The translations under genes were made by a program, and so were the position numbers. Positions 36,405 to 39,659 of a stretch of DNA of 64,000 bases are shown piece after piece. This stretch comes from Synechococcus lacustris (GTDB lineage: Bacteria; Cyanobacteriota; Cyanobacteriia; PCC-6307; Cyanobiaceae). Location: the NCBI GenBank assembly GCA_903943975.1, contig CAJAQB010000006.1, forward strand, positions 1 through 64,000, read 5' to 3'. How positions within the stretch are numbered: position 1 is the first letter of the stretch; each line of letters begins with the position of its first letter. Below the pieces are notes generated by a model that was not told the DNA's origin, did no database searches, and saw only the letters and a program-made list of their open reading frames with translations.

Positions 36405-37319
36405 TCAGAGAAATTCCGGTCGTTCTTGGGCACAGGCGCTGAGCGAGGCCTGCAAACCAGCCCAATCGCTGGCCTCCACCAGGCGCCGCAACCCCTGCAG
36501 CTGGCCTTCGTATTGGTTAAGGGCCGCCAACAGTTCCTCTCGGTTGCAACGGGCCATCAGCGTGCCCAGCTCCGGATTACCGCCCCCCACCCGGGTGGTG
36601 TCGGCAAAGCCACTGGAGGCCAACTGGCGCAGCAGCGCCGGCAGCTGGCTGTTTTCAGAGCTGTCCCCAGTAGGCCCCCCCACAGGCCCCCCAGCAGTGG
36701 CGGCGGCCTGCAGCAGGGCGGCCCCCAGCAGCACCGGCAGGTGGGAAATCATCGCCACGGCCCGGTCATGGTCTGCCGCTGCGCAACAGCACCAGCGGGC
36801 CCCCACGGCCCCCGCCAGGGCCTCCACCAGGGCAAGGGCGCCGGGGTCGGTGCGGGCGCTGGGGGTGGCCACCCAGGGGCGGCCCTCAAACAAGTGGCGT
36901 TCACCGGCCTCCACCCCGGCCTGGGCGGTGCCCGCCATCGGATGGCCGGCCACAAATCGCCCCGCCAGCAGCGGCTCCCACCGGGCCAGCAGCGGCGCCT
37001 TCACCGAACCCACATCCGTAACCACCGCCGCCGGGGGTAGGGCCGCCACCAGGGCTGGATCCGGATCCAACAAACGATCCAGCGGCAGGGCCAGCACCAC
37101 CAGGCCGCAGCCCCCAAGCACCTGGGGATCGGTGCTAACCGCATCGGCCAGGCCCCGCTCCTGGGCCCGCTCCGCCGTGGCGGCTCGATGCACCAGCGCC
37201 TGGACCCGCAGGCCCTGGGCCCGCAGGTCTAGGCCGAGGGAGCCTCCGATCAAGCCAAGGCCCACCACTCCGATCGGTGCGCCCCCTAGGAGCTGCTGAA
37301 GCTTGATTGCTGCTGTCAT
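36405..37319 (-). CDS. tyrA: prephenate/arogenate dehydrogenase
   Basis: A 304-aa NAD(P)-dependent dehydrogenase of tyrosine synthesis; cyanobacterial members usually prefer arogenate and NADP. The Rossmann start VGLGLIGGSLGLDLRA is near residue 18, VVTDVGSVKAPLL and FVAGHPMAGTAQAGVEAG follow with the catalytic histidine, then AMISHLPVLLGAAL. The ATG at 37319 (TAAIKLQQLLGG) is chosen. It converges with crtD across 15 bp. Confidence 0.92.
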   Translation of the reverse strand: MTAAIKLQQLLGGAPIGVVGLGLIGGSLGLDLRAQGLRVQALVHRAATAERAQERGLADAVSTDPQVLGGCGLVVLALPLDRLLDPDPALVAALPPAAVVTDVGSVKAPLLARWEPLLAGRFVAGHPMAGTAQAGVEAGERHLFEGRPWVATPSARTDPGALALVEALAGAVGARWCCCAAADHDRAVAMISHLPVLLGAALLQAAATAGGPVGGPTGDSSENSQLPALLRQLASSGFADTTRVGGGNPELGTLMARCNREELLAALNQYEGQLQGLRRLVEASDWAGLQASLSACAQERPEFL

Positions 37320-37392: not shown

Positions 37393-38832
37393 ATGCTCGA
37401 AGCCCAGGCCCACCAAAGGCTCAAGCAACTCCTGACTGTGAGTGATGGATCCCGCTGGCCCCATCACCTCACCCTCACCCGCTTGGTGGCCCGCAGCCTG
37501 CGGCGGGGGGACCACAGCCTGTTTCCGATCAGTGCCGACTGCGACAGCAGCTGGCTGCTGGGTTTACTGCTGCCGGTGATGCTCACCGAACGGCCCGTGG
37601 CCCTGGTGGCCAGCCAGGAATTGCAGCGGCGGCTGCTGAAGCGGGAGCTGCCACGGCTGGCCTCCGTGGGCCTAACGCGACCCCTGTGGCAGGGCAGCGA
37701 CCCGCCAGGGGAAGCGGGGCTCTGGCTGCTGGATCCAGGCCAACTGGTGCAGGTTTGGCGCCAGGGGCAGCTGGGGGAGCACCAACTGGTGTGCGCCGAA
37801 GCGGAACAACTGGAATCGCTGCTGCGTCAGGCCCAGGCAATCGTGATCACCCCCCAGCACTGGGATCAGTTGGCGCGGGCGCGACCCCCGCTGGCCCCAG
37901 CACTGCTGACCCTGCACGAGCGCCTCAGCCGCCGGCTGCTGAATAGGCCCCTGGGCCGCAGCCCCCGACTGGCGATTGCCCCGGAGGACGAAGCCCCCCT
38001 GCGGCTGCTGCTTCAGGACCAGGGCCCCTTACCCCAACCCTGGCAACGCTGGCTGGAAAGTGGCGGCAGTGGCTGGAGCAGCTGGGCGGTGACCGATCCA
38101 CAGCTATTGCAGTGGAGCTGGGAACGGCAACCGCTGCGGCCCCTGCAAAGCCTTGATGGGCTGCTGAGCCAACGGGGGGCCGTGCTGGTGGGGGCCTGGA
38201 TGCCCGAGGGGCAACGGCTCCACGACCTGGGCCTGCGCCAACCGGTGCTGGTGCCGCTCCATGACCCCCAGTGCCAGGAACCGCTACCCCTCTATGTGCC
38301 CAGCCTGCAGCCCCTGCCCAACAGCCCCCGCTATGGGCAACACCTGCTGCAGGAATGCCGACGGCTGATTTTGGGACAGGCGGGGCTATCGGTGCTGCTG
38401 GTGGATGACGATCCCTTGCGCCAATGGCTCACCAGTGCCCTGGCGGCGGAATTCGGCCGCCGGGTCGACCACGAACAAACCGCCCCCGAAAGCAATGGCG
38501 TGATCTGCTGTCGCTGGAGCTGGTGGCTGGAGCACCAGGCACAGTTACCCCTGCCCTGCCAGCTACTGCTCGGCCCCCTGCCGATTGCCAGCCTCGAGGA
38601 TCCACTCACGGCGGCGCGGGTGGAAGCCCTGCGCCGCAGCGGCCGGGATTGGTTCCGGGAACTGCTGTTACCCGAAGCCCTGGAACGGCTCCAGCAGGCC
38701 GTGGCCGGACTGCGGGGCCAGGGCAGCCGCGTGGCGGTGCTGGATGGGCGGCTGCGGGGCCGCAGCTGGGGCCAACGGGTGCTGGAAGCCCTGGAACCCT
38801 GGGAACCCCTAGATCGTTTGTTGCCTGATTAG
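37393..38832 (+). CDS. DinG-like helicase homolog lacking ATPase motifs
   Basis: A 479-aa protein with the overall DinG/XPD-type superfamily 2 layout but no catalytic motifs. FPISADCDSSWLLGLLLPVM (residues ~44-63) stands where the Walker A EAGTGTGKS should be, followed by VALVASQELQRRLLKRELP like the DinG strand after it. No DEAH is present (LLTLHERLSRRLL in the expected place). The C-terminus LLPEALERLQQAVAGLRGQG and VAVLDGRLRGRSWGQRVLEA mirrors DinG motif VI and its LDRRL end, but the QGxGRLIR arginines are gone. Probably non-catalytic. Divergent from tyrA. Confidence 0.72.
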   Translation: MLEAQAHQRLKQLLTVSDGSRWPHHLTLTRLVARSLRRGDHSLFPISADCDSSWLLGLLLPVMLTERPVALVASQELQRRLLKRELPRLASVGLTRPLWQGSDPPGEAGLWLLDPGQLVQVWRQGQLGEHQLVCAEAEQLESLLRQAQAIVITPQHWDQLARARPPLAPALLTLHERLSRRLLNRPLGRSPRLAIAPEDEAPLRLLLQDQGPLPQPWQRWLESGGSGWSSWAVTDPQLLQWSWERQPLRPLQSLDGLLSQRGAVLVGAWMPEGQRLHDLGLRQPVLVPLHDPQCQEPLPLYVPSLQPLPNSPRYGQHLLQECRRLILGQAGLSVLLVDDDPLRQWLTSALAAEFGRRVDHEQTAPESNGVICCRWSWWLEHQAQLPLPCQLLLGPLPIASLEDPLTAARVEALRRSGRDWFRELLLPEALERLQQAVAGLRGQGSRVAVLDGRLRGRSWGQRVLEALEPWEPLDRLLPD

Positions 38833-38883: not shown

Positions 38884-39126
38884 ATGGGTGAAGCCCGTCG
38901 CCGTTCCGCCCAGGGGCTGCCCCCGCGCGAGCCGAAATCAACCACCCCCAAGGACACCTCCCCCCGGCTGGTGGAGTGGCTTCCCTTCAGCCAAAACCAG
39001 GCGCGCCAGTTCGTGAGCGTCAGCACCCGAGGCGCCTGGATAGGCATCGGCGCCCTGGTGCTGTTCTGGGTAACGGTGCGTTTCATCGGCCCCGCCGCTG
39101 GCTGGTGGACCCTGGCGGACGGCTAA
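38884..39126 (+). CDS. DUF2839-family small membrane protein
   Basis: 80 aa beginning MGEARRRSAQGLPPRE, the signature of the cyanobacterial DUF2839 family, followed by a basic linker and one or two hydrophobic helices (GAWIGIGALVLFWVTVRFIG). Function unknown. The ATG at 38884 is chosen over one three codons upstream because the family starts with MGEA. It lies 51 bp after the DinG-like gene on the same strand. Confidence 0.8.
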   Translation: MGEARRRSAQGLPPREPKSTTPKDTSPRLVEWLPFSQNQARQFVSVSTRGAWIGIGALVLFWVTVRFIGPAAGWWTLADG

Positions 39127-39233
39127 ATAGCCACCTGAACCGTGCCGATTCACTGACCCAGGCCGCGCCCTAGGTATTTCAACCTGCGAAATCTAAAAAA
39201 AATCCTTAGAATGGCGCGAATTGCCGCCGCCGC

Positions 39234-39659
39234 GTGTTTTTACGACTAGGTGCCCAATACCAGGATCTGGTCAAGGACCTGGTGCTAAGTCTCCAGGCCC
39301 TGGCGGAGAGCCTGCAGAAGGAGGGGGTCCATGCCTCTTGCTACAGCTGCGGCGACGGCAGCTGCAGCGACGGCAGCCAAGGGGCCTCCTTCGTGGCAGA
39401 CCTACTCGATGGCCACGCCGTGCGTTTTTTGGTGTCTGACTACGGCATCAACTGGGTGGAGATGCGCCACGGGGTTGAACTGGTGAAGCTTGAAGGCTCG
39501 GAAGCGATCCAGGAACTGGACCGCCTCGGCAAGCACCTGCGCGCCATCCAAAAGCAACGGCGGAGCGAGGGGAGCCCCCAGCCCCCCAAAAACAGCAACC
39601 GTCAGGGCCGCCCCCCTGGGCACCGGGACGAAATCAACTCGCCTCCGCCAACGGCGTAA
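39234..39659 (+). CDS. DUF1815-family protein
   Basis: A 141-aa protein of the cyanobacteria-specific DUF1815 family: [54 protein letters not shown] and [19 protein letters not shown]. The cysteine cluster CYSCGDGSC near residues 36-44 could bind metal but is not known to. The C-terminal ~35 residues ([20 protein letters not shown]) are a low-complexity tail beyond the usual domain. It starts at a GTG and its last 26 bp overlap the convergent recA. Confidence 0.82.

Follow-up and report, generated by a model that had tools for sequence, protein, structure and literature searches.

The window analysed is a 64,000-nucleotide stretch from Synechococcus lacustris. On its plus strand, an uninterrupted frame from 37393 to 38832 encodes 479 residues followed by a stop codon, in agreement with the original prediction of an intact frame. 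The protein belongs to sDinG, the short-type DinG that a review by Cheng (2025) names from Nostocales, Chroococcidiopsidales and Pleurocapsales (PMC11981726), and is placed there by its domain content and its missing ATP-binding residues. The gene and its neighbours are arranged as follows.

36405–37319, minus strand: tyrA (prephenate/arogenate dehydrogenase), divergent; Pfam PDH_N/PDH_C; the start at 37319 is estimated, and the longest frame extends to 37424
37393–38832, plus strand: sDinG-type pseudohelicase gene, 479 aa; open frame, DinG fold, orthologues
38887–39126, plus strand: small DUF2839 protein, encoded immediately after sDinG; Pfam 8e-27
39234–39659, plus strand: DUF1815 protein, second gene downstream; Pfam 1.2e-43; adjacency often kept

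No sigma-70-like promoter was found for the sDinG gene. Six one-mismatch matches to a LexA box occur in the window, which is about the chance expectation, and none lies at the sDinG gene. DinG as a gene receives no mention in the cyanobacterial DNA-damage and repair literature examined.

The NCBIfam YoaA and DinG profiles match the C-terminus of the protein (aa 396–469) with E values of 2.7e-11 to 7e-9, and Pfam Helicase_C_2 matches the same residues below threshold (E 2e-3). An AlphaFold2 model, built on 32 picocyanobacterial orthologues (alignment A1), has a mean pLDDT of 85.5 and a pTM of 0.82. The top-ranked solved structure in a Foldseek search with this model is E. coli DinG (6fws, E 1.1e-20). 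In VIA-align, the DinG proteins of S. aureus and E. coli and CasDinG are aligned over about 440–471 residues at Z 21–25, followed by XPD at Z 15–21 and DEAD-box proteins at Z of about 15. Because the NCBIfam profiles, the Pfam model and the predicted structure all match, the kinship of the 479-residue protein with the DinG family is beyond chance. A two-lobed RecA-like protein without kinship to DinG would fit the single-sequence search of solved structures, which returned no helicase. However, the class-wide profile does reach DinG, the DinG profiles match at 2.7e-11, and DinG, CasDinG and XPD outrank other SF2 helicases (Z 21–25 versus about 15), which leaves this reading a negligible probability. 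Annotation pipelines that read the C-terminus may label sDinG as a DinG helicase; its residues say otherwise.

The protein is predicted to adopt the DinG/XPD fold along its whole length. The original prediction of a DinG/XPD layout from end to end thus stands for the fold, with its clear structural match to DinG, but does not hold for the domain content. The model contains only MD1, MD2 and Arch. The iron-sulfur (FeS) domain is replaced by a gap of about 115 residues relative to canonical DinG, located after the third strand and ahead of motif II. Neither an FeS nor a pseudo-FeS domain is left, and the cluster cysteine columns are 0% occupied among 61 orthologues. The Arch is much shortened and compact, with Arch columns missing; canonical DinG frames measure about 640–790 aa, compared with 479 aa here. 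The segments of the protein referred to below are the following.

37456–37503, plus strand: helix α2 of MD1 (aa 22–37); W22, H24, R30 and R34 nearly invariant class-wide
37531–37554, plus strand: former Walker A, now SADCDSSW (aa 47–54); variable loop class-wide, lysine in 0 of 61 aligned
37795–37806, plus strand: former DEAH box, now AEAE (aa 135–138), from the alignment of orthologues
38578–38604, plus strand: MD2 proline motif LPIASLEDP (aa 396–404), retained; P397 100%, P404 98% (61 sequences)
38647–38658, plus strand: DWFR (aa 419–422), retained; W and F 100% (61 sequences)
38692–38715, plus strand: former motif VI, now QQAVAGLR (aa 434–441); single arginine R441 retained, one place off register
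38740–38751, plus strand: LDxR (aa 450–453), retained; D451 and R453 100% in sDinG and canonical DinG

The ATP site is dismantled. The Walker A lysine, a DEAH-type Walker B, the QxxGRxxR motif VI and the four-cysteine FeS domain are all absent from the 479-residue protein. SADCDSSW occupies the place of Walker A, AEAE that of the DEAH box, and QQAVAGLR stands where QG.GRLIR is expected, so that the three motif losses reported in the original prediction are all confirmed. When 61 sDinG sequences were aligned with 12 canonical ones, retention in sDinG was 0% for the Walker A lysine, 10% for the DEAH histidine, 5% for the SAT threonine, 2% for the motif VI arginine and 0% for the FeS cysteines, and motif III was also lost. 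Motif VI is present in none of the 121 orthologues examined, and the P-loop region varies in both sequence and length. The DEAH box is eroded to DGADDLE in many orthologues and reads DGAH or DQAH in early-branching lineages. The loss of motifs is common to the orthologues examined, and no sister genome examined carries a motif-intact orthologue. Many orthologues contain GRS or GKS strings, which were considered as Walker A and rejected; they are located in LGRSALIQ preceding strand 1, outside the P-loop.

The protein is very probably a dead enzyme. It would neither bind nor hydrolyse ATP in the manner of a helicase, and would not translocate. Residual nucleotide hydrolysis through unorthodox motifs might be argued from the DEAD/DEAH-like strings that survive in two orthologues (L075 and L078) and from R441 adjoining the old motif VI position. 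This is improbable in view of the variable P-loop, the lysine missing throughout the alignment and the loss of motifs I, III and VI. In addition, according to the available part of the review, ATP could not be modelled into Nostoc sDinG (PMC11981726).

Of 399 genomes of the order, 371 have an orthologue; among the 269 good genomes the count is 259. In a sample of the phylum, the gene is present in 137 of the 139 genomes that represent the oxygenic class. Both exceptions are members of family f26. Profile A2, built from 53 orthologues, finds no sDinG in four f26 genomes (G579, G647, G681 and G700), and the family appears to have lost the gene entirely. Outside the class, the profile of 53 orthologues gives canonical DinG-type matches only, or none; in the non-photosynthetic relatives within the phylum, the DinG present is of the canonical kind alone. 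The gene is mostly single copy, and its frame is open and full-length across the class, the smallest genomes included.

In a tree of 73 proteins, a branch with support 100/100 sets all sDinG sequences apart, and this single group takes in orthologues from every large family of the class. The tree requires one origin, no later than the base of the class and before the Gloeobacter-like lineages diverged. If the root is placed on the canonical side, the earliest-branching sDinG proteins are those of families f47 and f54. In these two families and in one f50 genome, sDinG coexists with canonical DinG frames of 651–728 aa. The canonical DinG of Gloeobacter-like genomes (L129–L133) has a serine at the expected first FeS cysteine (HYVSKRR, HYLSKRR). 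No second, active DinG was found by the Helicase_C_2 or DEAD_2 profile in the source genome, which is 95% complete; DEAD_2 also fails to detect some of the control genomes in which Helicase_C_2 gives a match. The most parsimonious scenario would be a single duplication with inactivation of one copy no later than the base of the class, after which most lineages lost the active copy.

The selection on sDinG is purifying, with a strength about that on TyrA. The closest sDinG pairs have a dN/dS of 0.05–0.18. Since the raw all-pairs median of 0.32 is affected by saturation, TyrA and RecA were used as a yardstick over the same pairs; across these 105 pairs, dN/dS is 0.39 for sDinG, 0.36 for TyrA and 0.05 for RecA. 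By region, constraint is strongest in the MD2 stretch at aa 390–430 and weakest in the Arch-like stretch. The values for sDinG are well below 1.

The sDinG of HL-like Prochlorococcus (L109, L110 and L111) shares 22–24% identity with the query on a branch of 2.45 changes per site; its frame is intact and its dN/dS about 0.2. Such fast evolution is what a decaying pseudogene or relic might display. That explanation is very improbable given the full-length frames across the class, even in the smallest genomes, and a dN/dS well below 1. The original view of a maintained pseudoenzyme rather than debris is borne out by the class-wide full-length frames, the common motif loss, the single origin and the purifying selection.

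What this very probably dead helicase keeps of the ssDNA groove lies in MD2. Eight positions are 100% conserved among the 61 orthologues: W378, P397, W420, F421, P427, D451, R453 and G460. The LDGRL-type end noted in the original prediction is indeed kept, as LDGRLRGR at aa 450–457. In E. coli DinG, the P motif shapes the path of the ssDNA, and F638 and a second phenylalanine, F615, stack on deoxyribose (PMC6300356). F421 aligns with F638 in an alignment to 6fwr, and the counterpart of F615 is mostly isoleucine in sDinG. On the MD1 side, the R..Q of the DinG Q-motif is lost from helix α2 in the orthologue alignment, and the two DNA-contacting arginines of the FeS domain are gone with the deleted domain. 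R30 and R34 of helix α2 were rejected as novelties of sDinG; half of the canonical proteins share them. Judged from the aligned residues, sDinG has retained that part of the ssDNA site which lies on MD2, and has lost the MD1/FeS half together with the ATP site. The review likewise describes loss of the MD1 DNA residues and a placement of ssDNA on MD2 only in Nostoc sDinG, as far as its available text goes (PMC11981726).

Because the DNA-contact positions of MD2 are retained, a DNA-binding scaffold is plausible, and sDinG is probably a static, non-catalytic scaffold that touches DNA. MD2, with its proline motif, DNA-stacking phenylalanine and conserved arginines, would bind ssDNA or a fork junction. 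The diverged MD1 and the compact Arch, with the W/H/R face on helix α2, would hold a partner protein. By analogy, sDinG may work like XPD in transcription initiation, as a scaffold rather than a motor. Against a DNA scaffold, folding alone might account for the conservation of the proline motif and DWF, and with the MD1/FeS contacts gone and F615 mostly replaced by isoleucine, the affinity for DNA may be weak or nil. Family f26, four genomes of which live without sDinG, also counts against it.

In every picocyanobacterium sampled, and also in many families elsewhere in the class, DUF2839 lies immediately 3′ of sDinG in the same orientation. The adjacency is missing in Gloeobacter-like genomes and in several to many other families. 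It is a lead on a common function, short of proof. The gene order sDinG-DUF2839-DUF1815, with the latter two at 38887–39659 in the window, recurs in many cyanobacterial families. No function for DUF2839 or DUF1815 is described in literature abstracts.

The dead helicase could also be a purely protein–protein scaffold without a DNA role, perhaps acting with its neighbour DUF2839. This is a possible but somewhat doubtful alternative: it draws on the adjacency in all sampled picocyanobacteria and many other families and on the loss of the MD1 and FeS DNA contacts. Against it, few positions of the protein are as well conserved as those that contact DNA in MD2, and many other families lack DUF2839 next to sDinG.

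That almost every oxygenic cyanobacterium, down to the most reduced Prochlorococcus, has kept the dead version suggests a useful, non-enzymatic job that does not depend on ATP. A broader reading, speculative and rather unlikely to hold as a whole, would make the DNA-touching scaffold a core, non-catalytic part of a DNA transaction unique to oxygenic phototrophs. With its single origin at the base of the class, sDinG might have displaced active DinG in almost all lineages, and a static clamp might replace the DinG motor at R-loops or stalled forks in most cyanobacteria. Because sDinG is mostly single copy, a function found in one cyanobacterium could be the first for the whole group.

The sDinG proteins of the review resemble the protein described here in having two motor domains and a compact Arch, no FeS domain and no conserved ATP residues, and in being cyanobacterial. 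Another trait given there is an extra helix α3a, situated between strand 1 and α3 and filling the ATP site; in the present model, strand 41–46 is followed by one helix, 54–64. The available part of the review covers three orders and states that the function of sDinG is so far unstudied (PMC11981726), whereas the orthologues identified here span nearly the whole class, including picocyanobacteria and Gloeobacter-like genomes. What is new relative to that part of the review is the spread over nearly the whole class, the origin in one event, and the presence of canonical DinG alongside sDinG in early branches.

E. coli DinG (6FWR, 6FWS) and YoaA share with sDinG the fold, the MD2 proline motif, the DNA-stacking phenylalanine and the LDxR-type end. 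Unlike sDinG, they are active FeS helicases with a Walker A, DEGH/DEAH, SAT, a GRxxR motif VI and the four cysteines of the cluster, all of them missing from the protein described here. CasDinG of type IV-A CRISPR is similar in fold (Z about 24) and also lacks the cluster-binding cysteines. However, it is described in the available text of its report as an active 5′–3′ translocase that has a vestigial FeS domain and partners CRISPR effectors (PMC10450177). XPD serves in transcription initiation as a scaffold for TFIIH and not as a motor (PMC11479942), and so provides a family member with the kind of role proposed for sDinG. In repair, by contrast with sDinG, XPD remains enzymatically active.
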